This document shows positions 20,398-41,095 of a stretch of 64,000 nucleotides of DNA, piece after piece. Source of the DNA: Sulfuricurvum sp. PD_MW2 (lineage in GTDB: Bacteria; Campylobacterota; Campylobacteria; Campylobacterales; Sulfurimonadaceae); the NCBI RefSeq assembly GCF_002633015.1, contig NZ_NSIU01000003.1:62001-126000 (forward strand). The letters run 5' to 3'. A program made the translations under genes and the position numbers. How positions within the stretch are numbered: the first letter of the stretch is position 1; every line of letters starts with the position of its first letter. Below the pieces are notes generated by a model. It was not told where the DNA came from. It searched no databases and saw only the letters and a program-made list of their open reading frames with translations.

Positions 20398-21291
20398 ATG
20401 AAACAATTAGCAATAATCGGCTCCACAGCATCTGGAAAGAGTGATTTGGCTCTTAGACTCGCTGATGAATTTAATGCGCTTATTTTATCGATCGATTCGT
20501 TGAGTATTTACAAAGAGATCGATATAGCCTCTGCAAAACCTTCCAAGCAAGAACTCGGTCAAGTGGAGCACTTTGGAATCAATCGATTATCTCCTAACGA
20601 AACGGCGAATGTTTTTACCTTTATCGACGAATATCGTCGCATACACGCAGCCGCACTCGAAAACAGAAAAAACATTATCATTGTAGGTGGGAGCAGTTTT
20701 TATCTCAAAAGCATGATTGATGGCTTATCCAAAATCCCCGAATATTCCAAACTGACCCTCGAAACTGCCAAAGAGATGCTCAATGATTTGGATCAATGTT
20801 ATCGCCTTTTAAGCACTATCGATCCCGAGAGTATGGAAAAAATCGCTCCCAATGATCGTTATCGGATTGAAAAGCTGCTGCTGATCTATCTTGAATCCTC
20901 CATCCCCCCCTCAAAATGGTTTGCAGCTCATCCTCCACAACCTATTATTACCGAGTGTCCCATCCTCAATCTCCATATCGATCGAGAACGCCTACGGGAG
21001 AAGATTGCACTTCGTACCCATACAATGATCACTATGGGGCTTATCGATGAAGTTGCAGAGTTGGAACGGCTTTATGGAAGGTCCCCAAACAGTATGAAAG
21101 CCATCGGGGTTATCGAAGTTTTAGATTATCTAGACGGAAAAACTACCAAAGATGAGATGACTCAACTCATCGCCACGCATACCGGACAACTTGCTAAACG
21201 GCAACAAACGTTTAACGCGCATCAATTCATAGTGGACAAAAGCGGTACGGCTGATGAACTCTATACGCATGCAAAGATGCTTCTAGAATAG
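20398..21291 (+). CDS. miaA: tRNA dimethylallyltransferase MiaA
   Basis: MiaA transfers the dimethylallyl group to A37 of tRNAs reading UNN codons, making the substrate of MiaB (encoded at 5149-6441). The P-loop GSTASGKSDLALR is at residues 8-20, followed by the conserved DSLSIYKEIDIASAKPS and IIVGGSSFYLKSMI. The C-terminal MKAIGVIEVLDYL and KRQQTF segments are typical. The 297-residue length is usual for the phylum. Seven C residues in a row occur near 20906, close to the length at which slippage becomes likely. Its end overlaps pflA by 9 bases in the convergent direction. Confidence 0.94.
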   Translation: MKQLAIIGSTASGKSDLALRLADEFNALILSIDSLSIYKEIDIASAKPSKQELGQVEHFGINRLSPNETANVFTFIDEYRRIHAAALENRKNIIIVGGSSFYLKSMIDGLSKIPEYSKLTLETAKEMLNDLDQCYRLLSTIDPESMEKIAPNDRYRIEKLLLIYLESSIPPSKWFAAHPPQPIITECPILNLHIDRERLREKIALRTHTMITMGLIDEVAELERLYGRSPNSMKAIGVIEVLDYLDGKTTKDEMTQLIATHTGQLAKRQQTFNAHQFIVDKSGTADELYTHAKMLLE

Positions 21292-21306
21292 CGCTAGAGC
21301 ATCTTT
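21273..21306. terminator. Bidirectional hairpin over the overlapping ends of miaA and pflA
   Basis: AAAGATGCTTCTAG (21273-21286) pairs with CTAGAGCATCTTT (21294-21306), 13 base pairs with one bulged T and loop AATAGCG. Both stop codons (miaA TAG 21289-21291, pflA TAG complement 21283-21285) lie within it. A-tract/T-tract ends on both sides favour termination in both directions. Confidence 0.65.
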
Positions 21307-23664: not shown

Positions 23665-25170
23665 TTAATAGCCGCTATTATACACGAATAGAGTAATAAC
23701 TTTCAACAACGGATTGACGGCGAAAACGGCAAATATCGTTCCGACGGCTGCAATCCCGATGATCGTTTTAAGTGATAACGACGCATTCATAAAATAGTAT
23801 TGATCGTATCCGACGATCGGCTCTTTCATGAACATAAACACGATCAATTTGAGATAATAATATCCTGCGATAGCAGAGTTGAGCGCCATAATAAGCGCTA
23901 GTACAGTATATCCTGATGATACAGCTGAACCGATCAAGTACATTTTACCCCAGAATAGACCAAACGGCGGGATCCCTGCGAGAGAAAGCATAAACAATCC
24001 CATCATCACGGCTGCCATTGGCATAGTTTTCACCATACCTGAAAATTTTTCATACGGATGGTCTGAACTTTGTCCGGCAATTAGATTTTTTTGACGGTTT
24101 ACCCATAGCATTGTAAATGCTCCGAGGTTTGTAAAGCTAAACAATGCCCAATACAAGAATAACCCTGTATTCGATTGCGTTGTACCGATCAAAATAGCAG
24201 CCATAACAAAACCGGCATGACTGATAGAGCTGTATGCCAACATACGTTTAACATCACTTTGAACCAAAGCCCAAATATTCGATGCTGTCATTGTTACAAC
24301 AACCCCGATATACAAAATGACTTGTAGCCATGCAACACCGCTATGGACCAAGAATTCAAATAAGCGCATCGCAACAACGAATGCCGCGATTTTAGGAACG
24401 ATTGACATATATCCTGCAAGTGCCGCAGATGATCCCTCATACACATCCGGAGTCCATGTATGAAACGGAACCATTGAAAGTTTGAATCCGAATGCGGCAA
24501 TCATAAATGCCATCGATAAAAGAACATAACCGATATTTCTATAATGATCTTCCGCCATGATGGTAGCGATTTGATTAATCTCAACCGAACCGCTGATTGC
24601 ATACAAAATCATTGATCCGAATGCATAAAAACCGGCTGCCAAAGCTCCCATCGTAAAATATTTGACAGCTGCCTCAAATGATTTTGAACGGTTGTGCAAT
24701 GCAATAAGGGTATACAACGCCAATGACGCCGTCTCAAGACCGATAAAAATCATGATAAGGTTATCGGTTGCAACCATAAATTGGAACCCTGCAATCATAA
24801 ACATGAAAAGGGCAAAGTATTCCGGATAATCGTATTCATGGAACCGCTTAGAAGTAAGTGCCAATGGAATGAAAAGCATCGAACCTACAACAATAATGAT
24901 CTGTGAAAGGATCGCAATACCGTCCATCAACATCACATCAAAAAATCCTAAGATCGTCCCGTTTTTGAGAAATACTCCCCCAAAATCGACCAATGCACCC
25001 AAATCGAGCAATAAAAACAAAAGAGCAATCATGACATAAAGCGATTTATGCAGACCCCCTTTTGCCAAGTCAATAATTAATATCGATAATGCACCGACGA
25101 TCGCTATAAGCATCGGAGCCAGAGTCGCTATATTTAGCGATCCTAATGCAACATGTATAGGCTCTAACAT
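23665..25170 (-). CDS. nuoN: Complex I subunit NuoN
   Basis: NuoN is an antiporter-like proton-pumping subunit in the membrane arm of complex I. The 501-residue protein has about 14 membrane spans. It shows the family core [20 protein letters not shown], the discontinuous-helix segment [20 protein letters not shown] with key Lys/His, and [16 protein letters not shown]. It overlaps nuoM by 1 base and is the last nuo gene before pflA. Confidence 0.96.
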
Positions 25171-26720
25171 TAGTTCGCCTCCTGCATAGTATTTGTTCCA
25201 TTTTTACCTGACAAATCAGGGATACGAAGTTTTGCTTCTTCGCTTTGAGCTTTATCATGCATTAGTTGAATAACCGATTCAACACTGTTATTGATAGGCT
25301 CTAGAACCGGTTTTGGATAGACACCGAGCCAAATAGCAACGATAGTAAGCGGAATCAATCCGACAAGCTCTGTTTTATTGAGGTCTTTGAGGTTTTTATT
25401 CTCTTCATTCGTTACGTTACCGAAAAATGCTTTTTTATACGCGCTGAGCATATAGATTGCACCGACGATAATCGCCGTTCCGGCTGTCAACGTTAACATA
25501 TGCGATTGTTTGTAAAAGCCAAGCAAGCTCAAAAATTCACCGACAAAGTTGATGGTCAGCGGCAAGCCGACAGATGCCATCATCATAATCCCAAAAATTG
25601 CCGCATAACGAGGCATAACTGATGCAAGTCCGCCAAACTCACTCATAAGTTTTGTATGACGACGATCATAAATCACTCCGACGAGTAAGAACAGCGCCCC
25701 TGAAACGACACCATGCGCTAACATCAAAAATACAGAACCGCTCACCCCTTCAACGTTCAAAGCAAACGTTCCGAGGATAATAACCCCCATGTGTGAGATC
25801 GAGCTGTACGCAACGACTTGTTTGATATCTTCTTGTGCATACGCTACCATCGCCGTGTAGACGATCATGATGATAGAAATAATAGCAATCGGCATCATAA
25901 AATATACGGACGCATCCGGGAATAACGGCAATGAAAAACGGACAAACGCGTACGTTCCCATTTTAAGCAAAATTGCCGCCAAAATAACCGAACCGATGGT
26001 CGGTGCTTGTCCGTGTGCGTACGGAAGCCATGTATGAAACGGAAACATCGGTACTTTAATCGCGAATCCAAGGAAAAATGCGACAAATAACCACAATTGG
26101 AAATTCTCAGGAAGAATCAGACGATACCACTCTAAGATTGAGAAACTCCACTGACCTGTTGCTTGGTAATAAAAATACGCCATGAAAAGCATACCGACCA
26201 ACATCACCAACGATCCCGTAAAGGTATACAAGAAAAATTTGACCGATGCGTAAATACGAAGCGGTCCACCCCATGCTCCGATGATATAAAGCATTGGTAC
26301 CAATGAGAGTTCCCAAAATACGTAGAACACAATCGCATCCAACGCTGCAAAAACACCTACCATCGTCATTTCAAGGAATAACAATGTAATGATCAAATCT
26401 TTGATACGGCGCTTTTCAGTCAATGACGCAATACCGATCAACGTAAAGAATGTCGATAGGATGATAATAAAGAGTGAAATACCATCAACCCCAAGGAGAT
26501 AATTAACCCCAAACGCCGGAATCAACGGAGCCGATTCCATAAACTGCATACCTGAAACCATTGGATCATACGCATACCATAACCACAATGAGAGAAGAAA
26601 CTCGATCCCTGCAACCGCAATACCGTATGCGCGCATACTGTCTTTGGTAACGACAAATCCGAGCATTGCCGCCAATGCAGGGAAGAAAATTAAAAGTGTT
26701 AAAATATGATCTATCATCAT
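25170..26720 (-). CDS. nuoM: Complex I subunit NuoM
   Basis: NuoM is another antiporter-like membrane-arm subunit. The 516-residue protein has about 14 spans, with [25 protein letters not shown] and [16 protein letters not shown] as signature segments. The pumping Glu is in the first conserved helix ([17 protein letters not shown]). Two ATGs are adjacent; the second has better spacing to AAGGAG. It is 6 bases after nuoL. Confidence 0.96.
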
Positions 26721-26726
26721 TACTCC

Positions 26727-28613
26727 TTAAGCGCCGACAGCGTTGTAACCAACGGTAAAGGCCACGGCAAGAATCGAAAGAACGACCAAGCCGACAACCA
26801 TCCAACGAAGCATTGTTGAAAGGTTCCCGTTTTGGATATCACGCGTATTCTCTCCCGTTTTATAAATCCCGTTTGCAATAGCATCAACCGTTGCATCGAC
26901 AATTTTAAGATCGATCTGTTTCCATGCAATGCGTGAAAGCTCCGCATACGGTTTAGCGAAAATTTCTTCGTACATTTTAGGGATGTAGTATTGGTTCCAC
27001 AACAATTTGTAAAAGAAACTTCTTTCCATTGCGGATGATCCATCCGGCACATTGCTCCAGTTAGCGTATTTTTTGTACGCGAACAAAATCGCAGCAATAA
27101 CAAAAAGCTGCGTGCCGATTGTCATGATCCAATAGGTTGTTTGATCATGTACATGGTACTGCGTTGCTGGAAGCAAGTTCATAACCAATTGGAAATAGGT
27201 CATTTTGAATGAGCCGGCGATAATCGCCAATACCAACAACGGTGACATCGCGACAAGCATAAATTTGTACGCTTCATGCGGATGGATACCAAAAAGTTTA
27301 TAACGCTCTTCTCCATGGAAAATAAGCGCTACAAGGCGGAATGAATAAAATGCTGTAAGACCGGCTGTCAACAACAATACGGTATAAATAACATAATGAT
27401 GTTCTACAAACCCTACTTCCAAAATCAAATCTTTTGAGAAGAATCCGGCAAACGGATAGATACCTGCCAACGCAACCGATGCAAGAGTCATCATAACAAA
27501 TGTCCCTTTCATCACTTTGCGCAATCCCCCCATCTTGAACGGATCGAGTTCATCGTGCATCGCGTGCATAACGTTACCCGCACCCAAGAACAAGAGTGCT
27601 TTAAAGAATGCGTGTGCCATCAGGTGGAACAATGCTACCCAATACGCTCCCAAACCGGCAGCAACGAACATGTAACCAAGCTGTGAAAGGGTAGAGTACG
27701 CAATAATACGTTTCATATCACGGTTTACTAATGCCATAGATGCCGCAAAAAGAGCGACGAATGCACCAAGGCTTGCGATGAAGATACCGACATTCGGGAT
27801 CAGATCATAAATCGCATTGGAACGAACTACTAAATAAACCCCTGCAGTAACCATCGTCGCAGCGTGGATCAATGCAGAAACCGGAGTCGGACCTTCCATT
27901 GCATCCGCAAGCCAAGTATGAAGTGGAAACTGTGCCGATTTACCCATCGCCCCGATAAAGAGGAAAATTCCGATCCACGTAATAATCACAGGTTGAAGGT
28001 TACCGATCTCAGCAAATACGACATCATATTGAAGTGATCCGACATTCCAGTAGATCAAGAAAATACCGATCAACATACCAAGGTCAGCGATACGGTTCAT
28101 GATAAATGCTTCATTAGCTGCCCACGTTGCCGATTCTTTGTGATACCAGAATCCGATAAGACCCCATGAACACAAACCGACCCCTTCCCATCCGATGAAA
28201 AGACCGGCGAAGTTATCGCTCATAACCAAAACCATCATCGAGAACACGAATGCTGAGAGCCATGCGAAGAAACGGTTAAACCCTTTATCATGATCCATGT
28301 ATCCGATTGAATATACATGAACAACGGTGGAGACGATAGTAACAACCATCATCATCACGACGCTCACTTGATCAACGACAAAACCAAACGGGATATACAA
28401 ATCACCCGTTGCCATCCATGTCATCATCTCGACATGTACTGTATGTCCGCTCATCACGTATGTAAGCAAAATCGCACTGCTCAAAAAGGATGTAAATAAC
28501 AATCCCGATGCGACAATACCGACCTGTTGCGATTTAGGCGATCCGCTAAAAAGCGCTGAATAAAGCGATCCTACCAGCGGAGCAAACAGCGCAATATATA
28601 AATAAAGTTCCAT
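26727..28613 (-). CDS. nuoL: Complex I subunit NuoL
   Basis: NuoL is the distal antiporter-like subunit with the long lateral helix. The 628-residue protein shows the N-terminal LFIGWEGVGLCSWGLIGFW, the pump segment MGKSAQFPLHTWLADAMEGPTPVSAL, and RDMKRIIAYSTLSQLGYM. The C-terminal amphipathic lateral helix and last span (MLRWMVVGLVVLSILAVAF) are present. Nearest neighbours are nuoK (3 bases upstream) and nuoM. Confidence 0.96.
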   Translation of the reverse strand: MELYLYIALFAPLVGSLYSALFSGSPKSQQVGIVASGLLFTSFLSSAILLTYVMSGHTVHVEMMTWMATGDLYIPFGFVVDQVSVVMMMVVTIVSTVVHVYSIGYMDHDKGFNRFFAWLSAFVFSMMVLVMSDNFAGLFIGWEGVGLCSWGLIGFWYHKESATWAANEAFIMNRIADLGMLIGIFLIYWNVGSLQYDVVFAEIGNLQPVIITWIGIFLFIGAMGKSAQFPLHTWLADAMEGPTPVSALIHAATMVTAGVYLVVRSNAIYDLIPNVGIFIASLGAFVALFAASMALVNRDMKRIIAYSTLSQLGYMFVAAGLGAYWVALFHLMAHAFFKALLFLGAGNVMHAMHDELDPFKMGGLRKVMKGTFVMMTLASVALAGIYPFAGFFSKDLILEVGFVEHHYVIYTVLLLTAGLTAFYSFRLVALIFHGEERYKLFGIHPHEAYKFMLVAMSPLLVLAIIAGSFKMTYFQLVMNLLPATQYHVHDQTTYWIMTIGTQLFVIAAILFAYKKYANWSNVPDGSSAMERSFFYKLLWNQYYIPKMYEEIFAKPYAELSRIAWKQIDLKIVDATVDAIANGIYKTGENTRDIQNGNLSTMLRWMVVGLVVLSILAVAFTVGYNAVGA

Positions 28614-28616
28614 ACC

Positions 28617-28922
28617 CTATCCTCGCATTGAATTCATTTGATCTAAATCGATCTTACCGGTACGTTTGTACCATACGATGAGAAGCCCAAGTCCGATTGC
28701 TACTTCCGATGCGGCAATCGCGATAATAAAAAAGGCAAACATTTGCCCGCTCAAGTCGCCGATATAATGAGAAATTGCTGCAAAAGCAATATTCGTTGCA
28801 TTCAATAAAATCTCTGTTGCGAAAAAGAGCATCAAAAGGTTCTTACGGCGCATTACACCGATCAAACCGATTACAAATAATACACTTGCTAGCACAAGAT
28901 AATGGGTCAGTGTAATTGCCAT
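28617..28922 (-). CDS. nuoK: Complex I subunit NuoK
   Basis: NuoK is a 101-residue protein with three membrane spans near the quinone site. The conserved glutamates are in LLMLFFATEILLNATNIAF and the EVAIGLGLLIVWYK segment. Its start overlaps the nuoJ stop by one base. Confidence 0.96.
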   Translation of the reverse strand: MAITLTHYLVLASVLFVIGLIGVMRRKNLLMLFFATEILLNATNIAFAAISHYIGDLSGQMFAFFIIAIAASEVAIGLGLLIVWYKRTGKIDLDQMNSMRG

Positions 28923-29500
28923 CAGTGTCCTCCTGCTTCTGGTTCAAAACCTTCGTCCAAACCATCAATCTCTTCTTCTTTCATCAATGTCAACGATTTG
29001 TCCATTTTCTTACCGGCCAAAACGATCCCTCCGATCATTGCAACAAGTAACATTACGGCTGCAAGTTCAAACGGAACCAAATATTTGGTGAATAACACCA
29101 TACCGACGGCTTGTGAATTTCCAACGTTTTCTTGGATCGGATAAAGCGCTTGAATATTGTTAGAGACGATAGGAGCTACGAAAATCGCAACAACCATAAC
29201 GGCTGCCAATACGCCTAAAACAAAAACGATACGCGGGTTCGTCCGTTTTTCAACAACATTACGTGTTGTATCGAAAAACATCATCCCAAAAGCGTACAAT
29301 GCCATAACCGCACCGGTATAGACGATAATTTGGATTGCACCCAAAAAGTCGGCACCCAATATAAAGAAAAATGCCGAGATAAAAATCATCCCTGCCGCCA
29401 TTGCGGTAATCGCATATAGCGCTTGACTCGTCATAACGGTGATAGTAAACATCACGATCGTGAGAGCCGCAAATAGATAAAAAGCAATTGCTTCAAACAT
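28922..29500 (-). CDS. nuoJ: Complex I subunit NuoJ
   Basis: NuoJ is a membrane-arm subunit of 192 residues with five spans. The third helix carries the conserved GADFLGAIQIIVYTGAVMAL segment thought to couple quinone chemistry to pumping. The acidic C-terminal tail (MKEEEIDGLDEGFEPEAGGH) is an extension after the last span. It lies 9 bases after nuoI. Confidence 0.95.
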   Translation of the reverse strand: MFEAIAFYLFAALTIVMFTITVMTSQALYAITAMAAGMIFISAFFFILGADFLGAIQIIVYTGAVMALYAFGMMFFDTTRNVVEKRTNPRIVFVLGVLAAVMVVAIFVAPIVSNNIQALYPIQENVGNSQAVGMVLFTKYLVPFELAAVMLLVAMIGGIVLAGKKMDKSLTLMKEEEIDGLDEGFEPEAGGH

Positions 29501-29509
29501 TCCTACTCC

Positions 29510-30133
29510 TTAATATGCCAACGGGGTCTTTTTGACCGACTCGTCGCTTCCTGGGATGATGGCACCGAAGCCCGGATACTCGGCTTGCTGCCCTGCTTTT
29601 AACATATCAAGCGGTGTAAGCATGTCATCTTTGATGACGAAATGTGCACGCTGTTCCGATGCATTTTCATAACGCTGTCCATGAACAATCGCAAGTTCCG
29701 GACATACCTCTGCACAATAACCGCAGAAAATACAGCGCCCAAGATTGATGCTGTATTCGGTTACCTCTTTACGGCTGTTCTCGTCGATGCGTGTGTCCAT
29801 TCGGATACAATCGGAGATGCAGATTTTTTCGCACAATCCGCATCCGATACAACGCTCATACCCCGATTCCCATAAGCGTAAAAGCTTATGTACGGCACGG
29901 TAACGCGGTCCGATCGGGAGCTTTTCCATTGGGTATTGGACTGTATGGATGTCAAACTTGATCATCTCTCTCATAACAACCCATAGTCCGACAAAAAGTT
30001 CACCGCTAAACGTACGTTTAACCACTTGTTTAAATTTATCCCATCCCGTGGTTGGATAGTTTTCTATATCGACGTAATAATACGCCGATGATTCATTTAC
30101 ATTACGGTCCGTAAATACTTCTTCATGGTGCAT
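29510..30133 (-). CDS. nuoI: Complex I subunit NuoI (two [4Fe-4S] clusters)
   Basis: NuoI passes electrons from NuoG to the terminal cluster in NuoB through clusters N6a and N6b. The 207-residue protein has CIGCGLCEKICISDC and CIFCGYCAEVCPELA; the first lacks the usual Pro after the fourth Cys but keeps all ligands. An N-terminal region of about 60 residues precedes the ferredoxin domain. It is 12 bases downstream of nuoH. Confidence 0.95.
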   Translation of the reverse strand: MHHEEVFTDRNVNESSAYYYVDIENYPTTGWDKFKQVVKRTFSGELFVGLWVVMREMIKFDIHTVQYPMEKLPIGPRYRAVHKLLRLWESGYERCIGCGLCEKICISDCIRMDTRIDENSRKEVTEYSINLGRCIFCGYCAEVCPELAIVHGQRYENASEQRAHFVIKDDMLTPLDMLKAGQQAEYPGFGAIIPGSDESVKKTPLAY

Positions 30134-30145
30134 AATCCAACCTCC

Positions 30146-31135
30146 TTAGAACATCATCACGATACCGGTGGCAACAACGTTGAGCACCGCGATCGGCATT
30201 AAAACTTTCCAACACAACCACATCAACTGGTCAGGTCGAATATCCGGCCAGGCAGCACGTGTCCAGAGGAAAAAGAAAAAGAAAAAAGACACTTTCAACA
30301 AGAGCTGAACCGCACCCGCGATCGTACCGTCACCGAAGCCACCCAAAAAGACGATGGAAATGACAAACGAGATAAAGAACATATTCGCGTATTCACCGAT
30401 GAAAAACATCCCCCAACGCATACCTGAATACTCCGTCCCAAAACCGTCAATAATCTCGTGATCGTTTGCAACGAGGTGAAACGGTGTACGCCCTGTTTCC
30501 GCAAATGCCGCAATCCAGAACAATACGAACGCAACCGGTTGTGACCATACGATCCAATGGGTTATTCCGCCTGCTTGATAGTTATTGATATCGATCAAGG
30601 ATAATGATCCCACCATCATGAGCGGTGCCAATAATGCAAGACCCGTAATAACTTCATACGAAATAAAAATTGCCGCACTACGTGCCGCAGAGATCAATGA
30701 CCATTTATTTGCTGATGCCATCCCCCCAAGGAGTGGTCCATACAATCCGATTGCCATAATTCCAAGAACGTACAAAATACCGACATTGATATCCGCAACG
30801 ATCGGATGAACGGTATAGCCGAACGCCGTAAATTGCGGCCAGAACGGAATCGCTGCTGATGCCATAAAAGCCGTTGCTGCAGTGATAACCGGTGCAATTT
30901 TAAAGATCGGTTTAACAACATTTTGGGGAACGATATCCTCTTTGGTAAAAAGTTTGATCCCATCGGCAGCTACTTGAAGCAATCCGTATGGTCCTACGTG
31001 CATAGGCCCAAGACGGCGTTGCATGAACGCCAATACTTTACGCTCAAAATAGGTCCCAAGACCCGCAAGCGCTGAGAAGATTAACAAGATTACAACGATT
31101 TTTGCAATCGTCTCGATAATGAATGCTACATCCAT
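30146..31135 (-). CDS. nuoH: Complex I subunit NuoH
   Basis: NuoH forms the quinone tunnel at the joint between the arms. The 329-residue protein with eight spans carries ERKVLAFMQRRLGPMHVGPYGLLQ, then AETGRTPFHLVANDHEIIDGF, and the GMRWGMFFIGEYANMF loop. A run of six phenylalanines (SFFFFFFLW) near the C terminus comes from an A/G-rich stretch on the plus strand. It follows the first NuoG gene by 3 bases. Confidence 0.96.
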   Translation of the reverse strand: MDVAFIIETIAKIVVILLIFSALAGLGTYFERKVLAFMQRRLGPMHVGPYGLLQVAADGIKLFTKEDIVPQNVVKPIFKIAPVITAATAFMASAAIPFWPQFTAFGYTVHPIVADINVGILYVLGIMAIGLYGPLLGGMASANKWSLISAARSAAIFISYEVITGLALLAPLMMVGSLSLIDINNYQAGGITHWIVWSQPVAFVLFWIAAFAETGRTPFHLVANDHEIIDGFGTEYSGMRWGMFFIGEYANMFFISFVISIVFLGGFGDGTIAGAVQLLLKVSFFFFFFLWTRAAWPDIRPDQLMWLCWKVLMPIAVLNVVATGIVMMF

Positions 31136-31138
31136 GCT

Positions 31139-33625
31139 TTACACCTTTTGAATTGATACACTGGCAAAACGGTAACCGTCAAACAGTGCTTCAGAATTAA
31201 TCTCAGTATCAAATGTCGGAAGATACGCTATATCTCCCTCAATTTTACCGTCTTTGATAACCGCCACATTCATTTCACCTCGAGAGGTTTTAACGTTAAC
31301 ACGGTCTCCTTCGCTCCAGCCTGACGCTTCCATTGCAGAGGCAGATACGTACAATCCGCCTTTGCTCTGAAGTTGATGTGCACGTGCGGTAAACGGAGAA
31401 AATTGAAGTACCGGATTAGCCAAATAGACCACTTTTTCGTTCATCGCTTTAGCAGCATCGAATGTCTTAACACTCTCATCGCCACTTGTAGCAACATCTT
31501 GAATATCGAGCATATAACCGCGAACCTCTTCACCCGCATTGGTGTAATGATTTGGAAGTGCATCAAAATCAAGCGCTTTAAATCCTGCACTACGAGGAAG
31601 CTGAGCGGTATACTCAACCGTATATTTTGCATTCATTCCAAGTGCGTTGGCAATATCATTCAAGACATATCCGCCATACGGCAATGCCGCATTGGTTGGA
31701 TTAACCTGCTTGTCAATCCCGGTAAATGTCCCCTCTTGTTGATTCAATGATGGCATATCCAAATCGCCCTCGCCGAGTGCGCTAAGGGTGAAATTACCTA
31801 CGGTGTTATACCCAATAGTATAGTTTCCGCATTCTGCGTCAAGATCACAAATCATTGCTACACCGAGTGTGTTAGAGAGATTTGGAATCATCGTCACGTT
31901 AAACGATGTGTATTTTTCGATCAAAGCAACCAAACGGGCACAATTTGCCGAATTCGGGTGAGTATAGAGATCCGGACCGACCATCAATGCGAAGCTCTCT
32001 TTTTTCGCCAAATATTTGGTTAATGTATCGGCGAAACCAGCCGGCGCATTCAAAAGGGCAAAAAGGGCATTGTCATCTACTTCAACCTCTTTCGAGATTT
32101 TTTTCTTGATGGTTTTCGTAACCTCTTCGCTCACCTCTTCTTCGACGCCGGTCTCTTCGTTGAGCACTTTTTTCACAACTGTTTCGGTCACTTTTTCATC
32201 AACGCTCTCTTCAACAGTCACGGTTTTTGACGAATGGAAGGTTGCAAGGTACTCAACTACCGATGCAGGCATGTGATCTTTATCTCCGAAAAGATCGAGC
32301 AATAAATAAAGTGCAGCCTCTTCCATCATCGGTGCATGGTTGAACTGAGTGATATTTTTGGACATCCCCTCAACGACCGGATCGTTGATCGGGTGGAAAT
32401 AAAGTCCTGCTCCTTTGTTCATCGAGAGGGCATTATTCATTGCAAAACGGGCATTCGGGTTATCGGTTTTGAGTGCACTTCCGATTGAGACGACAAAATC
32501 CGCTGCATGAACCGCTTTAAGATCTCCGCTGTACAGTGACTTTCCGCTGATTGCACTGTAATCACTCAAGAACGTTTTGAATGCCAATGCTTCATTGTTT
32601 ACCAAACGATAACCGAATTTATCTTTCAGACGTTGAAGGATCAATGCCTCTTCATTGGTAATCGTCGAGGTGAATTTGATCGTATCGGCTTTTTTGAATG
32701 CATCCAGCGCTTTAATAAATGCTGCAGCATCTTTACTCACATTGCGATTTTCAAAATCATATCCGTAACGCCCCGCACCACAAAGAGAGACATAATTCCA
32801 TTCGTTTTTAACACGATAAATTTTTGGCTCCGTATCAACAATACTGGTGTGCTTGATGTCGTAACTGATTTGGCATCCCGCTGAACAATGGGCACACGTA
32901 GCCGGGATTTGTTTGTGTTCCCATGCATTTGAGGTGTATTGGTAATCACTGCTGACAAGAGCCCCTACCGGACAAACCGCGCTACATTCTCCACAGTTTG
33001 TACAATCAAGTTTGTCTCCGGCGTTCGGCGCAATAAGCGATTTATTGAGCTTATTCCACATTGCATAGGCATCTTTCGGCATTGTCTCTTTGAATGTTGC
33101 CTCAATCGCGTCACTTCCGCGTGCTACGGTAGAGAGTGCAGCGTCTCCGATCATATCTTTACAAACCGTAATACAACGCTCACACATGATACACAATGCA
33201 GGGTCATAGTGAATCAATCCCCAATCTTGTGCCGGTTTATGGGTATCTTTGATCGAATACGTTTGTGAATCAACTCCCACTTCAAGAGTGTAATTTTGAA
33301 GTTCACATTCACCTGATTGATCACATACACCACACTCTAATGGATGGTTGACATCGTAAACTTCCATAATGGCACGACGCTCTGCAAGAATGTTAGGAGT
33401 GGTTGTCGTAATATCCATCCCCTCTTTTGCTTTAGCATTACACGCGTAAACCTGTTTTCCGTCCGCTTCCACCAGACAGATACGGCATGCCAAAGTTGGC
33501 GAACAACGTGTCAAATAACAAATAGCCGGAATAAAGATACCATTCGCACGTGCCGCATTGAGGATGTATTCACCCTCTTGCGTTTTAATAGCACGACCGT
33601 CTATGGTAATCGTGATTTCATTCAT
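31139..33625 (-). CDS. nuoG: Complex I subunit NuoG, paralogue 2 (longer copy)
   Basis: NuoG carries the iron-sulfur chain between the electron input module and NuoI. In this 828-residue copy, cysteines for the N1b [2Fe-2S] cluster lie at about 36, 47, 50 and 62. N5 is HPLECGVCDQSGEC (His94 to Cys107). The ferredoxin pairs are CIMCERCITVC (145-155) and CTNCGECSAVCP (208-218). Cysteines 244, 247, 251 and 282 fit the extra N7 cluster. A molybdopterin-oxidoreductase-like domain follows, interrupted at about 468-518 by a Lys/Glu/Val-rich insert absent from the other copy. The start overlaps the other nuoG stop by 4 bases. Confidence 0.93.
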   Translation of the reverse strand: MNEITITIDGRAIKTQEGEYILNAARANGIFIPAICYLTRCSPTLACRICLVEADGKQVYACNAKAKEGMDITTTTPNILAERRAIMEVYDVNHPLECGVCDQSGECELQNYTLEVGVDSQTYSIKDTHKPAQDWGLIHYDPALCIMCERCITVCKDMIGDAALSTVARGSDAIEATFKETMPKDAYAMWNKLNKSLIAPNAGDKLDCTNCGECSAVCPVGALVSSDYQYTSNAWEHKQIPATCAHCSAGCQISYDIKHTSIVDTEPKIYRVKNEWNYVSLCGAGRYGYDFENRNVSKDAAAFIKALDAFKKADTIKFTSTITNEEALILQRLKDKFGYRLVNNEALAFKTFLSDYSAISGKSLYSGDLKAVHAADFVVSIGSALKTDNPNARFAMNNALSMNKGAGLYFHPINDPVVEGMSKNITQFNHAPMMEEAALYLLLDLFGDKDHMPASVVEYLATFHSSKTVTVEESVDEKVTETVVKKVLNEETGVEEEVSEEVTKTIKKKISKEVEVDDNALFALLNAPAGFADTLTKYLAKKESFALMVGPDLYTHPNSANCARLVALIEKYTSFNVTMIPNLSNTLGVAMICDLDAECGNYTIGYNTVGNFTLSALGEGDLDMPSLNQQEGTFTGIDKQVNPTNAALPYGGYVLNDIANALGMNAKYTVEYTAQLPRSAGFKALDFDALPNHYTNAGEEVRGYMLDIQDVATSGDESVKTFDAAKAMNEKVVYLANPVLQFSPFTARAHQLQSKGGLYVSASAMEASGWSEGDRVNVKTSRGEMNVAVIKDGKIEGDIAYLPTFDTEINSEALFDGYRFASVSIQKV

Positions 33626-35877
33626 GATTCACTCCCTACCCTCATAATTTTCACCTTTTCAAAACGGTATTGTTCATTTAAGCCGCCAAATCCGACATCA
33701 TATGTCGGAACCAGAGCAATCGTCCCTTTTAACGTGGAATCGAGTTTAAAAATCCGTTCTTGAGTGCTTTGAGGAAATTCAAGGCGAATTTTATCACCAT
33801 CGCTAATTTTTGCGGCAGCTGCAAATTGAGCTGAACCACTCAATACTGCCTCTTTTTCAAGCTGTTGAGCTTGAGCGGTATAACTGTTGAATTGATTGAT
33901 CGGATTACAGCGATAGACAACCGTTCCGTTAAATTCCGGCAAATCATCAATTTCGTCTAATACACCGTTTGCTTCGACATCGCAGTTTTCCAACAAGTAC
34001 CCTCGATTATCTTCTCCAAGAGTACTAAAGAAATTGCCGAGTTCATCGAATTCCATACCGTTGAACCCTTTTTCTTTCGGAAGCTTAGCCGTATAATCAA
34101 TCGTATTTTCTGCAACTACGCCAAGTGAGGAAGCGATCTCGTTCAACGTATATCCCTCAAACGAAACTGCAACGTTTGTCGGCAATACCTGATAGTTAAG
34201 GCTAACAAACGTCCCTTCTTGTTGATTAAGCGCCGGGAGTTTGAACATGGTATCGCTGAGTGAACCCATTGTATAATCACCTGCTGCGTTGTACCCGATG
34301 ACATTGCCACCGCCGTTATCAACATCCAAATCACAGATCAATGATACGCCTACGGTATTTATACTCGTCGGAACTACTACCACCGAAAACTCGCTATAGG
34401 TTTCGATCATGGCACACAAACGGGCGATATTGGCTGCACGTTTATGGGTTAATACATCGCTGCCGATCACAAGAGTTTTGCGTTTTGTGCGAACGAATGT
34501 TTTTGCAATGCGTGCCAATTCTTCATCTCCGACATTCGATTCGGCGCACAAATACCCCTCATCAAGATTATCAAAATAGCGTTGATTTTCATCACTCAAG
34601 TCTGAACCGCTGAGAAGTGTTTTAGCAAGCATTGCGACAACACCCTCTTCCGTGCCCACTTCGTATTTTACAAACTGCGTTACCACATTTTGCAAAAGAT
34701 CATCTTCCATCGGATGCATATAGACCACTTTTGCACCGTTATGACGAGCTGCAGTAGTCATAGCATAACGGAGAACCGGATTATCACTCGATACACGTCC
34801 GCCAATAACAATAATGCCATCGCTTTGTCGTAACGCGTCGATGCTTCCGCCAAAACCGCTTTTGCCGCTAATAGAGCTAAACGCGTTCATAAAATTCTGA
34901 TACGTTCTGGCTTCTTCGTTGTAGAGTTTGAGTCCCAATTTCTCTTTGAGCAATTGAAGAATCATTGCCTCTTCATTGGTAATCAATGAGCTAAATCGGA
35001 GTCCATCAGCATTTTTGATTGCTTCTAAAACCTTAGCAAATTCTGCTTCGTCTTTTGATCCCTCTATTGCGAAATCAAACCCAAAGCGTCCTGCTCCACA
35101 CAATGTCGTGTGTTCAAAATCATTCGTAACACGATAAATTTTCTCTTTGGCACCGAGTGAATTGGAAGTATGACGCACTTCGTACATCAATGAACATCCT
35201 GCCGAACAATGAGCACACGTTGCCGGAATTTTAGTAAGTTCCCAAGCATTTGCACTGTATTGAAACTGCGAACTGACCAATGCTCCAACCGGACATACCG
35301 CGATACACTCTCCACAGAACGTACAATCAAGCGTTTCGCTGTTTTTCGGAATCACAGACGATTTGTATCCACCGAATTGAAGTTCAATCGCATCATCTCC
35401 GATAATCTCATTACAGACATGGACACATTTTTCGCACAAAATACACAAAGAGGGATCATAATTGATCAATCCCCAGTGCTCAATCTTGCGATGTTGATCT
35501 TTTGCGCTGAAGTGTTGTGCCGAAACACCGAATTCCAAAGTTTTATTTTGTAAATCACATGCTCCGGATTTGTCACATACACCGCATTCTAACGGATGAT
35601 TGACATCATAAAGACGCATGATATTGGTGCGCTCCGCTTTCAATCTATCCGACTCAATCGTTACGGCAAGTCCTTCCGTCGGAGGGGTTTGACAGCTGAG
35701 AATCAGACCATCAGTTTTGTCGGTTTCAACGACACACAATCGGCACGATGCACACGGAGTTGTTTTTTCCAAATAACACATGGTCGGAATATAAAACCCT
35801 GCTTTTCGCGCCGCTTGAAGGATAGTTTCCCCTTTGAGAGCGGTGACATTTTGACCGTTAATCGTAAAATTAATCAT
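33622..35877 (-). CDS. nuoG: Complex I subunit NuoG, paralogue 1 (shorter copy)
   Basis: This second NuoG-type protein of 751 residues also holds a complete set of cluster ligands. They are the N-terminal [2Fe-2S] cysteines (TMCYLEKTTPCASCRLC), HPLECGVCDKSGAC, CILCEKCVHVC, CTFCGECIAVCP and the N7-type CAHCSAGC with a distal Cys in LCGAGRFGFDF. A molybdopterin-like domain without obvious cofactor residues follows. It is closest to the NuoF-like gene (10 bases). The sequence is clearly paralogous to the downstream copy yet only moderately similar, so this is not a recent duplication. Confidence 0.93.
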   Translation of the reverse strand: MINFTINGQNVTALKGETILQAARKAGFYIPTMCYLEKTTPCASCRLCVVETDKTDGLILSCQTPPTEGLAVTIESDRLKAERTNIMRLYDVNHPLECGVCDKSGACDLQNKTLEFGVSAQHFSAKDQHRKIEHWGLINYDPSLCILCEKCVHVCNEIIGDDAIELQFGGYKSSVIPKNSETLDCTFCGECIAVCPVGALVSSQFQYSANAWELTKIPATCAHCSAGCSLMYEVRHTSNSLGAKEKIYRVTNDFEHTTLCGAGRFGFDFAIEGSKDEAEFAKVLEAIKNADGLRFSSLITNEEAMILQLLKEKLGLKLYNEEARTYQNFMNAFSSISGKSGFGGSIDALRQSDGIIVIGGRVSSDNPVLRYAMTTAARHNGAKVVYMHPMEDDLLQNVVTQFVKYEVGTEEGVVAMLAKTLLSGSDLSDENQRYFDNLDEGYLCAESNVGDEELARIAKTFVRTKRKTLVIGSDVLTHKRAANIARLCAMIETYSEFSVVVVPTSINTVGVSLICDLDVDNGGGNVIGYNAAGDYTMGSLSDTMFKLPALNQQEGTFVSLNYQVLPTNVAVSFEGYTLNEIASSLGVVAENTIDYTAKLPKEKGFNGMEFDELGNFFSTLGEDNRGYLLENCDVEANGVLDEIDDLPEFNGTVVYRCNPINQFNSYTAQAQQLEKEAVLSGSAQFAAAAKISDGDKIRLEFPQSTQERIFKLDSTLKGTIALVPTYDVGFGGLNEQYRFEKVKIMRVGSES

Positions 35878-35887
35878 CCATCCCTCC

Positions 35888-37924
35888 TTAGTGCGCGATC
35901 ATCGCGATATAGTAACAACGCATACAGCGCTCTGCTTCTGAGAGCGCCTCTTCTTGCGTAAAGCCGTATTTGACTTCTCGGTTATTGTCGCGCCGCTCAT
36001 CCACGGTGAGTACCTCACTGTGTTGACGCGGCAATCCAGGAAGCCACCCTTGTATTTTCTCTTTTTTATTATAGACTTTGAATTTACGGAGATGATCTTC
36101 CATAATCTCTTCATCGGTTAGTTTAATTTCGTCGTTCACGACATAACGGCTGATAACCGATGCCGCACGTTTGGCTTGTCCGACTGCATTGACGATCGTC
36201 ATCGGGCCGTATTCACAATCCCCCGCCGCAAAGATCCCTTTGCGTGAAGTCATATAGTCTTTCCCGTTGGTTTTGATCGTTGCCCATGAGGTACGTTCGA
36301 TCTCCCACTCTTCCGGAAGAAGTTTTAAATCAGCACTTTGAGAAACGGCTGGAATAAGGTAATCACACTCCATCTCAAAGCTTGCTCCTTCGATTTTCTC
36401 CAACGTCGGACGTCCGCCGTTTGGATCAGGGACGAGCTCAAAACGATCCACTACAAGCGATTTAAGGACATCGTTCTCATCTTTCATCGCCGCAACCGCC
36501 GAGTGAAAAATAAATTCAACACCCTCTTCAACCGCTTCGTGGTACTCTTCATACGTCGTATTTTTAATAATCGTCGCTTCATCACGTCGATAGAGCATCA
36601 CCACTTTTTTGGCGTTAGCACGGATCGCACAACGGACAACGTCCATCGAGGTAAATCCTCCCCCGACACACACGAGCGTTTTACCGGTTAAATCGACAAA
36701 GTCTGTCGGCAGCATATGACGTTTTTGATCGGCTTCTGGAACCATGATGTCGTATTTGACTTGGAGATTGACTTTATCCAAAAAGTCGATTGCTCCCCAA
36801 TACCCCTGAATCTCGGCGCGTTCATTGTCACAATAGACTTTTTTCGAGATACGAGTACCCGTCGCCACCAACGTCGCGTCATACTCATTCTCGAACTGAC
36901 GCATCATATCAGCGGTCACTTTGGTATTGGTGATAAAATTCACCCCCAAAGAGCGAACCGCTTCTATGTCTTGGTTGTATTTATCAATCGGCATACGGTA
37001 TTCAGGAACACCGACCGCAACCTCACCGCCGAGAACCGGAAGCTCTTCGTAAACATCAACGTCAATACCGTCCAAGGCTAAATAGTACGCACCCGTCAAT
37101 CCCGCAGGCCCGGCACCGATAATCGCCACTTTTTTCCCGATGGAAGGTTTTTTCTCACTCGGATGGAAAAATCCGAAACCGTGATCAGTTTCATAATCGG
37201 CACCGAGACGTTTGAGTTCCATAATCGAAATCGGCTCATCGAGATTCGTACGGCGGCACTCTGTCTCACACGGATGAGGACAAACACGTCCGCACGTATG
37301 CGCTAACGGCATTGTTTGACGCGTCGCCATCAATGAATCATCAAAACGCAAATCGCGAACACCTTCGATATATGCCGGAATATCGACGTGTGCAGGACAA
37401 GCATCCATACACGGAGCAGTGATTTTAGCGATATAGCTGGTATCTTCCAAATGGTAGTGTTTGGACGCTTTTTGGTTCTCGATACACGCCATAAACTCCG
37501 ACTCAAAATGAGTCATAAGGTCCAATAGCGGATTGGGAACCGTTTTGCCGATTTCGCATTTAGAGGTCTCTTGCATCGTGCGAGACACCTCTTTAAGGTG
37601 CTCCATATCCGATACAGATCCCTCTCCGCGAGCGATTTTGTCAAGCAAGTCGTACAAAATACGTCCGCCCCATCGCCCCGGTGCACATCGTCCGCACGCT
37701 TCAGAATAAACCTGATACTGCGCCGCATACTCGGTTGCGAGACGAACGACGTCTACATCCGGGTTAAATAAAGCGACACCGTCCCATCCGATAAACGCTT
37801 TGGATGATGCGTGCTCGTTATATTCCAACGGAAGGTTGTAAGCAGAGTTTTCCCAACTATCTTCATTCTTGCCGATGTTGTTGATCTGCTCGCCCCGCCA
37901 TGTGGAGAAATAGACTTTACTCAC
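35888..37924 (-). CDS. NuoF substitute: NuoF [4Fe-4S] domain fused to a GltD-like FAD/NAD(P) oxidoreductase
   Basis: Residues 1-150 resemble only the C-terminal iron-sulfur domain of NuoF (ACGRCAPGRWGG and CEIGKTVPNPLL). The FMN/NADH-binding and SLBB parts are missing. Of the four N3 ligands, Cys77, Cys80 and Cys123 are kept but the third (position 83) is Gly. Residues 165-678 are a GltD-type flavoprotein: PCMDACPAHVDIPAY and CGRVCPHPCETECRR (further [4Fe-4S] ligands), FAD motif GAGPAGLTGAYYL (270-), NAD(P) motif VGGGFTSMDVV and GDCEYGPMTIVNAVGQAKRAA. It sits where nuoF should be, between the small NuoE-like gene and nuoG. It probably feeds electrons to complex I from NADPH, ferredoxin or another donor; the donor is inference. 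Confidence 0.88.
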   Translation of the reverse strand: MSKVYFSTWRGEQINNIGKNEDSWENSAYNLPLEYNEHASSKAFIGWDGVALFNPDVDVVRLATEYAAQYQVYSEACGRCAPGRWGGRILYDLLDKIARGEGSVSDMEHLKEVSRTMQETSKCEIGKTVPNPLLDLMTHFESEFMACIENQKASKHYHLEDTSYIAKITAPCMDACPAHVDIPAYIEGVRDLRFDDSLMATRQTMPLAHTCGRVCPHPCETECRRTNLDEPISIMELKRLGADYETDHGFGFFHPSEKKPSIGKKVAIIGAGPAGLTGAYYLALDGIDVDVYEELPVLGGEVAVGVPEYRMPIDKYNQDIEAVRSLGVNFITNTKVTADMMRQFENEYDATLVATGTRISKKVYCDNERAEIQGYWGAIDFLDKVNLQVKYDIMVPEADQKRHMLPTDFVDLTGKTLVCVGGGFTSMDVVRCAIRANAKKVVMLYRRDEATIIKNTTYEEYHEAVEEGVEFIFHSAVAAMKDENDVLKSLVVDRFELVPDPNGGRPTLEKIEGASFEMECDYLIPAVSQSADLKLLPEEWEIERTSWATIKTNGKDYMTSRKGIFAAGDCEYGPMTIVNAVGQAKRAASVISRYVVNDEIKLTDEEIMEDHLRKFKVYNKKEKIQGWLPGLPRQHSEVLTVDERRDNNREVKYGFTQEEALSEAERCMRCYYIAMIAH

Positions 37925-37933
37925 AAGGTTTCC

Positions 37934-38158
37934 TTATTTCTTGACCACAATGGTCCAGTCAGCTTCGTTGAATTTCAACGAGTTCATGAGTTCACACCCA
38001 AGATCTTTAACCAAATCTGCCGATTGTTGTACCGGAGTAAAATCACCGATCTCAAATAAGAAAATCAATACTTCGCCGTTCACCGCTTCGTTTTTGATAA
38101 TCTCGGACATGCGGCCTGCAAAATTTTCTTTTAAATGACGTAAATCGTAACGTTTCAC
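37934..38158 (-). CDS. Small NuoE-position protein of complex I
   Basis: The 74-residue protein sits exactly where nuoE is found in other operons but has no cysteine cluster motif of the [2Fe-2S] NuoE. Its sequence (MKRYDLRHLK; FEIGDFTPV; LNFNEADWT-like FNEADWTIVVKK ending) matches the short proteins of C. jejuni and H. pylori in the same operon slot. It is probably a structural adaptor for the altered input module. It is 12 bases after nuoD and 9 before the NuoF substitute. Confidence 0.82.
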   Translation of the reverse strand: MKRYDLRHLKENFAGRMSEIIKNEAVNGEVLIFLFEIGDFTPVQQSADLVKDLGCELMNSLKFNEADWTIVVKK

Positions 38159-38170
38159 TGCATGCTCCTT

Positions 38171-39397
38171 TTAGCGGTCTACTTCACCGAAGACGATATT
38201 GGTCGTCCCGATGATCGATACAACGTCCGGAATATAGTGACCCGGCAATAAGTCGGTCAAAATTCCAGTATGCCAGAATGACGGCGCACGTAGTTTAAGA
38301 CGGTACGGATACGCACCCCCTTGGCTGTTGATGTAGTAACCGAGTTCCCCTTTCGGTGATTCAGTCGCTACGTAGACTTCTCCCACTGGAGGACGCATAC
38401 CTTGTGTCACAAGGACAAAGTGTTGCATCAACGAGTAGTTTTGAGTCATGATATCAATTTTCGGAGCTGAAATATATTGCGGCGCATGTGCCATCAACTC
38501 CGGCGTCGTATCGGCGTACATATCGAGTACTTGGTACAAGATTTTTGCCGATTCGCGCATCTCTGCCATGTAAAGTTTATAGCGAGCGTAGTTGTCCCCT
38601 TTGTCCGAAACCGGAACACTGAACTCTACTTCGTCATAAAGTTCATATGGCTCTTCTTTACGGATATCCCACTCGACGCCCGACGCACGGAGCATTACCC
38701 CTGAACAACCCCAGCTCAAAGCCATCTCTTTTGAGATAACCCCGACGTTTTCCATACGCATTTTCCAAATACGGTTAGAGTCCAAAAGGTCTTCGTAATC
38801 TTTGATATTTTCCGGCAGTTTATCGAGGAATTTACGCAAATCCGCGATGAAGTTATCCGGTAAATCGAGCGGAACTCCACCGATACGAACGGCAGCGTGA
38901 GTCAAACGGGCACCGCAGTAATCTTCGATCAAATCCATTAAATATTCGCGTTCACGGAATGCGAACAAGAAGACCGTCATCGCACCGATATCAAGTGCGG
39001 TGGTCGCCAACCAAAATAGGTGCGACATCAAACGGTTCGTTTCAAGAAGCATCATACGGATCACTTTAGCACGACGCGGTACTTCAAGACCAATCAATTT
39101 CTCTACCGCAAGAGCAAAGCCGTAGTTGTTTGAACTCGATGCGATATAGTCCATACGATCCGTCGTCGGCATGAACTCGTTATAGATCATATTCTCCGCC
39201 ATCTTTTCCATACCCCGGTGGAGATACCCGATATCCGGATGTGCTTTAGTGATCTGTTCTTGTTGCAAATGAAGCATCAAACGCAACTGTCCGTGCGCCG
39301 ATGGATGCTGCGGACCGAAGTTGAGAATCAGTTCATTGTCATCACGATCAAAGGTGATGTTTTCAAAAAAAGGTCGTAATCTATTGGCTTGTTGCAT
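38171..39397 (-). CDS. nuoD: Complex I subunit NuoD (49 kDa)
   Basis: NuoD forms the quinone pocket with NuoB. The 408-residue protein carries [16 protein letters not shown] and [15 protein letters not shown], including the quinone-site His, and the C-terminal [18 protein letters not shown]-type ending ([19 protein letters not shown]). It is separate from NuoC, unlike the fused NuoCD of enterobacteria. It starts 11 bases after nuoC. Confidence 0.96.
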
Positions 39398-39408
39398 ACT
39401 GTAATTCC

Positions 39409-40215
39409 TTAACGATCGCGATCAGAGATCACAACGCTTTTTTCTGCGTCAAATTTTTGAATCATGAATACACCCTCAGACTCTTGATATACAAGAGGTG
39501 TATCCGGTTCACCCTGGCTGATATCGGCACCGCGAGGTACTTCGTGACCCAAACGGGCGAAACGTTCGGTGTCATAACGATCCACGCGTGCAGAATCACG
39601 GTTTTCAGGCCCGATAATGTCACGTGCCTCTTTTCCGAAAATACGATCAACTTCATACCATTGCGCAAACTCATCCCCTTGGAGCGGATAGCTTTTACGA
39701 AGCGGGAATCCTTCCCAGTCATCCGGCATCAAAATACGTTTCATGTACGGATGATTGTTGATGACCACACCAAACATATCGTACATTTCACGCTCCGACC
39801 AATCAGCCGAACGGAAGAGTTTTTCAACACTTTGAATCGACTCTTTTTCACTAATTTTACATTTTACACGGATACGTTTGCGTTTGCTCATGCTGAGCAT
39901 TTGATAGAAAATTTCAAATTTTCCTTCAGATGAGAGCCAATCGATTGCCGAGAGTTCAGAGAGCTGATTGTACTCAAGTTCATTTTTGAGCAATTCAATC
40001 ACGCCGTAGTTGTCGTGAGCATTGATCACAACCACCATTTGTCCTACTTGGATGTAGGCATCCAAAACCTCAAACTTTGATTTGATCGCTTCAAGGTCGC
40101 TTGCAAATACTGCATCCTCGGAAACATCAGTTTTTGCTACTTGAGGAGCAACCCAATAACGGTCGGTGTAATAGGGTTTTTTCTGTACATCGTCTTTAGG
40201 GGTGTAAGATCTCAT
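39409..40215 (-). CDS. nuoC: Complex I subunit NuoC (30 kDa)
   Basis: The 268-residue NuoC has its signature [18 protein letters not shown] and [18 protein letters not shown]. An N-terminal extension of about 70 residues and a C-terminal tail of about 60 residues (from about residue 205) make it longer than the core family domain. It shares one base with nuoB. Confidence 0.95.
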
Positions 40216-40724
40216 TACATCAGCCTTTTTGGTTTTTGAGCACGTGATGCGCTCTCACGTCGAATTTTTTGTTGAAGCAGCAATACCGCATATTGCAATG
40301 TTTCAGGACGTGGAGCACATCCTGGAAGATACAAATCAACAGGGATGACACGATCCACACCTTGAACCGTCGCATACGTGTTAAACATACCACCGGTATT
40401 CGCACAAGAGCCCATTGAGATAACCCATTTTGGCTCAGTCATTTGATCGTACAAACGACGAATAAACTCAGCATGTTTTTTGGTCAGTGTACCCGCAACA
40501 ACCATGAGTTCTGCCTGACGCGGTGAAGCACGGAAAATAGTTCCGAAACGGTCAAAATCGTAACGTGATGCACCCGATGCCATCATCTCAATACCACAAC
40601 ACGCCAATCCATACGTCAGTGCCCAAAGGGAGTTTGAACGACCCCAATTGACCACTTTGTCGATTGTCGTCAATGCGACGGGAAGCCCGCCGTCTTTCAG
40701 ATAATTTACTTGATGTTGTGCCAT
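40215..40724 (-). CDS. nuoB: Complex I subunit NuoB (N2 cluster)
   Basis: NuoB holds the N2 [4Fe-4S] cluster that reduces quinone. Ligands appear as [20 protein letters not shown] and [11 protein letters not shown]. The ATG at 40724 (MAQHQVNYL) is chosen since AGAAAGGGG lies at a suitable distance; an in-frame TTG at 40745 would add seven residues and lacks support. The start overlaps nuoA by 19 bases. Confidence 0.95.
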
Positions 40725-41095
40725 TCGAGCGCCCCTTTCTTCCAAGCGTAAACAAAACCGATAGCGAGTAGCAAGATGAACATCATCATCTCAGCAAAAC
40801 CGAACCAACCGAGCAATTTAAAATCGATTGCCCATGGAAACATGAAAACAATCTCGACATCAAACAATAAAAACAGTAATGCGAAGAGATAAAACTGTGT
40901 CGAAATACGGTTAGGTTGTTTCGTCACTTCCGGTCCACACTCGTAAACCGTCAACTTTATCTTTTCAGTATCTTTGGCCGCCAATGCCCGACTGGCAAGG
41001 CGTGCAATCACGGTAGTCGCGTAAAACGCGCCAAACGTTAACACAAACAGTACAAATACCCCAAAATAGGGATTTGCTACGTTGTAATGCTCCAT
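40706..41095 (-). CDS. nuoA: Complex I subunit NuoA
   Basis: NuoA is a small three-span membrane subunit. The 129-residue protein carries the signature [18 protein letters not shown] followed by [15 protein letters not shown]. It is the first gene of the operon, with AAAGG before the ATG and a leader of about 80 bases from the likely promoter. Confidence 0.95.

Follow-up and report, generated by a model that had tools for sequence, protein, structure and literature searches.

The complex I operon of Sulfuricurvum sp. PD_MW2 carries two genes for the NuoG subunit in tandem, which raises the question of what a second NuoG does there. The window, i.e., the whole stretch of DNA analysed, is 64,000 nucleotides long (contig NZ_NSIU01000003.1, positions 62,001 to 126,000), and all genes named here lie on its minus strand. 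The operon reads nuoA-B-C-D, NuoX, GltDF, NuoG2, NuoG1, then nuoH to nuoN. The first block (38171..41095) holds nuoA (40706-41095), nuoB (40215-40745), nuoC (39409-40215) and nuoD (38171-39397). The last block (23665..31135) holds nuoH (30146-31135), nuoI (29510-30133), nuoJ (28922-29500), nuoK (28617-28922), nuoL (26727-28613), nuoM (25170-26720) and nuoN (23665-25170). The nuoI gene is named from NCBIfam; the other genes of both blocks are presumably those that their operon position and family features indicate. NuoX (74 aa, 37934..38158) belongs to PF16514 and is a homologue of the solved NuoE-like protein 2lxr. It is followed by GltDF (678 aa, 35888..37924), besides which the ORF list of the window holds no NuoF-like frame between nuoA and nuoN. 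Two genes serve as landmarks of the locus: an AAA ATPase gene 5′ of nuoA (42606..44342) and a DUF7494-TPR gene 3′ of nuoN (21283..23643). The locus was compared with an even draw of 397 Campylobacterota genomes. Their families are coded f1-f13 here, with f2 taken to be Helicobacteraceae, f3 Campylobacteraceae, f5 Nautiliaceae, f7 Arcobacteraceae and f10 Sulfurospirillaceae.

The two diverged NuoG genes of 751 and 828 residues that the preliminary description reported are confirmed, as is their 4-base overlap. NuoG2 (751 aa) occupies 33622..35877 and NuoG1 (828 aa), the NuoG common to both kinds of epsilon-type operon, occupies 31139..33625. The copies are 47% identical over 428 aligned positions in the N-terminal part and 39% identical over 295 in the C-terminal part. 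Complete ligand sets had been claimed for N1b, N5, N4 and N7 in both copies, and these stand. N1b is ligated by C36/47/50/62 in NuoG1 and C34/45/48/62 in NuoG2, N5 by H94 and C98/101/107 in either, and N7 by C244/247/251/282 and C221/224/228/260, respectively. In place of the four-cysteine N4 site, each copy has a stretch of eight cysteines (C145/148/151/155/208/211/214/218 in NuoG1, C145/148/151/155/185/188/191/195 in NuoG2). Compared with HydA and HoxU, both of which are matched by the two copies, this stretch is taken to hold N4 and an additional [4Fe-4S] cluster of the kind found in hydrogenases and HoxU. Each copy would thus have one more cluster site than first listed, a four-cysteine set that had been missed.

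The N1b, N5 and N4 ligands are invariant across 96 aligned NuoG1 rows, as are N1b, N5 and C145/148/151/195 across 113 rows of NuoG2. The extra-cluster ligands are complete in all 96 NuoG1 rows from two-NuoG operons, and the extra cluster is lost in 7/113 NuoG2 rows. Such a loss, which leaves a canonical N4 set, is seen in L126, L127, L128, L123, L124, L203 and L200 (f4 and f9). The curated NCBIfam model for NuoG, NF006305, gives NuoG2 897.6 bits and NuoG1 1178.6 bits (cut-off 591), and both copies fall under the cut-off of the general TIGR01973 model. The AF2 model of NuoG2 (pLDDT 89, pTM 0.89) matches the folds of NuoG and FdhA over its whole length. The match to 3i9v_3 has a Z of 25.6 (rmsd 3.1, 648 aligned), and alpha chains of formate dehydrogenase score slightly above NuoG (8j83_A, Z 27.8). 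Within the genus, dN/dS is about 0.06-0.08 for NuoG1 and NuoG2 alike (three comparisons each); both are under purifying selection. In most of 12 rows NuoG1 has a Lys/Glu-rich insertion at about residues 465-520, which is not found in L198 (f6). In genome G166 (L187:10681-13051), NuoG1 is split into two overlapping frames of 309 and 537 aa, with GltDF and NuoG2 intact.

The age of the pair was read from a NuoG tree built by a quick method, with E. coli NuoG (a long branch) and four short NuoG as the outgroup. The 61 NuoG1 rows and the 35 NuoG2 rows fall into separate clades with SH-aLRT values of 98 and 89, and in the rooted tree each clade covers the families that have the protein. As each clade spans the sampled families, the duplication is placed by this tree before the split of those that have the epsilon-type complex, and is thus older than the radiation of the sampled Campylobacterota families. 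The phylogeny that had been proposed to distinguish one ancient duplication from separate origins points to the former. The suggestion that both paralogues have been kept for a long time also holds, given clades that extend across families and conserved ligands.

The gene preceding NuoG2 encodes an unusual composite. In GltDF, the N3 domain from the C-terminus of NuoF (PF10589, residues 73-146) is fused to a complete GltD (PF14691 and PF07992, residues 169-584), and a Pfam domain search gave no hit for the NuoF 51K flavin domain. The window has CGRCAPG as the N3 motif. Its third cysteine is a glycine in 114/114 GltDF sequences, all of which have the remaining three N3 cysteines. The N3-type cluster is thus altered or absent, and the connection from GltDF to NuoG2 may not run through this domain. 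The solved structures nearest to GltDF are NfnB and the long NfnABC and Stn subunits. Two residues are present in all 114 sequences: K238, the counterpart of the lysine ligand K170 of StnC (placed by counting along the alignment of GltDF to the solved relative), and R310, the equivalent of NfnB R201. PMC10482914 describes the FAD of StnC as non-bifurcating and K170 as binding the adjacent cluster. GltDF is lengthened to 724-732 aa in L189 and L190 (f2 g43 and g23), where additional residues separate the N3 stub from GltD. A GltDF at 74% identity on a 3.1-kb contig assigned to Acidimicrobiia (L085) most likely reflects a binning error.

A two-NuoG operon had been expected to be unusual, which is not the case within the phylum: GltDF, its marker, occurs in 126/397 genomes (E up to 1e-100). 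NuoG1 occurs in 353/397 (E up to 1e-20, a count that includes short canonical NuoG in some genomes). Operons were read from 95 stretches and 80 named loci. After omission of L157-L186 (short stretches duplicating other loci), L072 (on the contig of L109) and L085 and L207 (stretches without NuoD, NuoH or NuoI), 174 loci were classified. These comprise the E. coli outgroup (L214) and 173 loci from Campylobacterota, the window included, with some species counted twice through two collections (e.g., L059 and L096). GltDF, full NuoG2 and NuoG1 occur together at 114 of the 173, where the NuoG2 of L109 was assigned by hand as its best score was to NuoG1. A further 36 hold NuoY and NuoG1 (Y-type operons), four hold canonical NuoEFG, and the last 19 are incomplete or disrupted, in most cases by a contig end. 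Among the classified loci there is no GltDF without full NuoG2 and no full NuoG2 without GltDF, and full NuoG2 is always accompanied by NuoG1. In independent pairs on the tree, GltDF tracks full NuoG2 in 4/4, too few for significance. It had been proposed that one copy may pair with the GltD-like protein; the operon survey and the tree pairs indicate that this copy is NuoG2. At L208, L209, L210 and L212, from some f7, f3 and f2 genomes, NuoEFG comes with a NuoG of 459-486 aa and a NuoD-type protein of 543-561 aa. Genome G317 has a canonical NuoEFG complex I and an epsilon-type operon together.

NuoY, the protein that stands between NuoX and NuoG1 in Y-type operons, has 215-351 aa. For every NuoY the NuoG2 profile beats the NuoG1 profile, with E values of 4e-12 to 6e-68 (L166, L186 and L201 in the profile list are contig-cut NuoG2 and were excluded as NuoY). 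Two pieces of NuoG2 are kept in 36/36 NuoY. The first is residues about 350-509 (34351..34830), which resemble domain III of FdhF in fold comparison. The second is residues 635-750 (33628..33975), a barrel-like domain at the C-terminus in which most NuoY have a small gap at 661-673. Residues 1 to about 345 and 510-632 are missing from all 36, and the Fe-S part (residues 1-265, 35083..35877) is absent from every NuoY examined. By these alignments, NuoY is NuoG2 minus all of the Fe-S domain and one internal domain. None of five NuoY tested has a Pfam match above cut-off. The model of one NuoY (pLDDT 90, pTM 0.88) aligns with formate dehydrogenase 7vw6_A (Z 23.5, rmsd 3.0, 268 aligned) over a span far exceeding its own length, i.e., with two separated parts. 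These parts are presumably FdhF domains III and IV, going by the domain limits of FdhF. As no cysteine ligand set is left, NuoY is unlikely to carry electrons.

This reduction took place more than once. A tree built from eight other Nuo proteins (61 loci) requires 6 changes of the Y state, of which well-supported branches force 4. In the tree of the NuoG2/NuoY core, f7 NuoY group with f7 NuoG2, and f2 NuoY lie among f2 NuoG2. Topology tests reject the monophyly of NuoY as a whole (p-AU 0.007) and, weakly, that of f2 NuoY (p-AU 0.039), but not a grouping of f7 with f3/f10 NuoY (p-AU 0.153). The trees firmly indicate at least two origins from the local NuoG2, and there were probably four or more. 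A tree alone does not tell the direction of a change, but an Fe-S domain with all of its ligands can plausibly only have been lost. The same boundaries in separate reductions suggest a core that must be kept. At L205, NuoX and NuoY are fused, with NuoX residues 1-73 at 54% identity, which places the NuoG2-derived module next to NuoX.

N7 was considered as a link between the two NuoG and rejected, as it followed families on the tree and not operon type. It is kept in NuoG1 in 91/97 two-NuoG rows versus 7/36 Y-type rows. The trait changes only 3 times on the tree: f7, f3, f9 and f10 lost it regardless of operon type and f2 kept it. Of about 4 independent pairs, 0.3 go the same way as operon type versus 0.2 the other way. 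The NuoG1 of L204 (f3 g54) is without all four N7 cysteines, like those of other f3, f7, f9 and f10 genomes.

NuoY also persists outside complex I. It is present in 30/36 tested genomes without epsilon-type NuoG1 (17/17 and 13/19), the six negatives being five f2 g26 genomes and G050. Orphan NuoY was confirmed by profile in the genomes read as loci, with G071 outside those. A scan for PF00346 (NuoD) in 24 genomes matched 11, where the proteins in f5 and several other genomes belong to other complexes or hydrogenases. There was no PF00346 match in seven NuoY carriers (G016, G018, G071, G072, G087, G103 and G119), nor in the six NuoY-negative genomes. In 25 control genomes with epsilon-type operons, the NuoY module is confined to the operon, where it is either part of NuoG2 or a NuoY; apart from NuoG1, the search hit nothing else but two marginal sequences (E 0.003 and 0.007). 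A NuoX protein query matched 4/4 epsilon-type genomes versus 0/6 with orphan NuoY. Orphan NuoY arose at least 9 times on well-supported branches of the gene tree, and a dN/dS of 0.04-0.39 in 11 pairs indicates that it is under constraint. The retention of NuoY in Y-type operons is thus no sure sign that it has a structural place in complex I. The repeated reduction of the second NuoG to a protein that persists without the epsilon-type operon goes beyond what the preliminary description claimed.

Neighbouring genes were tried as a clue to the function of orphan NuoY, and none was inferred from them. In f7 and most f2 genomes they are the old nuo flanks; in the others they are unrelated genes. 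The AAA ATPase gene adjoins orphan NuoY in 11/11 f7 genomes (L215-L225). The DUF7494-TPR gene lies beside or near it in seven f2 and f3 genomes (L226/L228, L231, L243, L244, L246, L247 and L248). In f3 g16, f5 and G087 the orphan lies away from the old nuo locus. A tie of NuoY to molybdopterin enzymes is likewise unsupported, PF00384 being present in 22/22 genomes, including six without NuoY.

From these findings, a scheme can be proposed in which GltDF, NuoG2 and NuoG1 work in one NADPH-linked complex I, which in autotrophs would run mainly in reverse and of which NuoY is a remnant. The scheme as a whole is judged slightly more probable than its negation. The GltDF/NuoG2/NuoG1 operon would be the ancestral form of the Campylobacterota, or epsilon-type, complex I, in which NuoX, GltDF and a second NuoG have taken the place of the NADH module NuoE/NuoF. 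NADP(H) would react at the FAD of GltDF. Electrons would then pass through two [4Fe-4S] clusters of the GltD part to the clusters of NuoG2, on to NuoG1, and by way of NuoI and NuoB to menaquinone, with the membrane arm coupling this transfer to ion pumping. NuoG2 is read as the wire from GltDF mainly because GltDF and the NuoG2 Fe-S half occur and vanish jointly. In sulfur- and hydrogen-oxidising autotrophs, the enzyme would probably work mostly backwards and use menaquinol and the proton motive force to make NADPH. Across the 397 genomes, with kinship ignored, GltDF and ATP-citrate lyase are both present in 103, GltDF alone in 23, the lyase alone in 16 and neither in 255. Six weak lyase matches, three of them just over the Pfam cut-off, were scored as absent. 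The association fits NADPH production by reverse electron flow in reductive-TCA autotrophs. GltDF without the lyase in f2 and f6 genomes, and the lyase without GltDF in six f10 genomes, mean that autotrophy is no strict rule for GltDF.

Lineages that lose the NADPH input would drop GltDF along with the Fe-S part of NuoG2 and retain domains III and IV of the latter as NuoY, with electrons entering from flavodoxin or ferredoxin. NuoY has no visible cofactor site and would dock or scaffold rather than conduct. It is an even call whether NuoG2 has a dual role, with the Fe-S half as the NADPH wire and domains III and IV in a separate, non-electron-transfer job that is rarely given up; such a job would leave NuoY standing when the operon is lost. 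PMC10482914 states that the FdhF-like domain of StnC is needed for assembly. In C. jejuni, flavodoxin or ferredoxin is reported as the electron donor of the epsilon-type complex I, and Cj1574c (NuoY) is said to mediate the flow of electrons from flavodoxin into complex I, probably jointly with Cj1575c (PMC4178425). Cj1575c (NuoX) is listed as essential in transposon screens of C. jejuni and C. coli (PMC10077673).

One complex with two NuoG is favoured over two alternative complexes on one membrane arm, in which a flavodoxin/ferredoxin version with NuoG1 and an NADPH version with NuoG2 and GltDF would exchange on the NuoI/NuoCD seat. Full ligand sets in both copies and the sufficiency of NuoG1 in Y-type operons would suit such an exchange, but full NuoG2 always travels with NuoG1 among the classified loci, and the L205 fusion fits an add-on beside NuoX better than a replacement of NuoG1; this reading is unlikely. 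It is similarly doubtful that GltDF and NuoG2 form a separate soluble NADPH enzyme of the Stn/NfnABC type (e.g., an NADPH:ferredoxin oxidoreductase) that is merely co-transcribed. The nearest solved relatives of GltDF are indeed soluble transhydrogenases and the NuoG2 remnant outlasts complex I, yet GltDF is never found outside a nuo operon among the classified loci. Lineages that lost the nuo operon also lost GltDF, the 126 GltDF genomes including none from f2 g18/g26, f3 g16 or f7 g14. Least probable, and improbable in its own right, is a bifurcating or confurcating complex in which the GltDF FAD splits NADPH electrons between quinone (via NuoG1) and ferredoxin (via the extra cluster of one NuoG): the invariant R310, the complete extra-cluster ligands of NuoG1, and the need of autotrophs of this group for reduced ferredoxin, together with the lyase association, speak for it, but the same arginine is found in the non-bifurcating StnC, GltDF has the StnC-type lysine and not the NfnB residue, and NuoG2 has lost the extra cluster in some rows.

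On the one-complex reading, major autotrophs of vents and sediments should possess a complex I that is linked to NADPH and contains two NuoG subunits. The survey explains where NuoY, which belongs to complex I in Campylobacter and Helicobacter, comes from, and provides a case of one protein repeatedly cut to the same core, with a remnant that outlives its machine. In open-licence full text, no paper was recognised that reports two NuoG in Campylobacterota or identifies their NuoY as a shortened NuoG; Sievert et al. 2008 and Finel 1998 may bear on these subjects.

Among known systems, the canonical NuoEFG complex I at L208, L209, L210 and L212 has NuoA-D, NuoH-N and a NuoG-like subunit in common with the window. 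It differs in having NuoE and NuoF and in being without GltDF, NuoX and NuoG2. The Stn/NfnABC enzymes (StnC; PDB 8oh5, 9bov and 9n5u) are alike in that a GltD-type NADPH/FAD domain feeds a NuoG-type domain, and StnC shares with GltDF the conserved lysine at the cluster next to the FAD, where NfnB has a non-lysine ligand. However, these enzymes are soluble, with GltD and NuoG domains on one chain, whereas the window has separate genes and a membrane arm. They also have an FMN-bearing NuoF-like subunit, of which the operon retains only the PF10589 N3 part in GltDF. The closest likeness is to the epsilon-type complex I of C. jejuni, in which NuoXY is described as replacing NuoEF (PMC6682613); the passages on it do not describe NuoY as a truncated NuoG. 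The epsilon-type mark, NuoX (PF16514) in place of NuoE, is present in the window, and the operon order and the NuoX and NuoG1 orthologues agree. In both, the slot between NuoX and NuoG1 holds a NuoG2-type protein. In C. jejuni this is the NuoG2-derived NuoY (called nuoF/nuoY in Campylobacter), which has neither a GltDF partner nor Fe-S ligands, whereas in Sulfuricurvum it is GltDF followed by a full NuoG2 with all Fe-S ligands.
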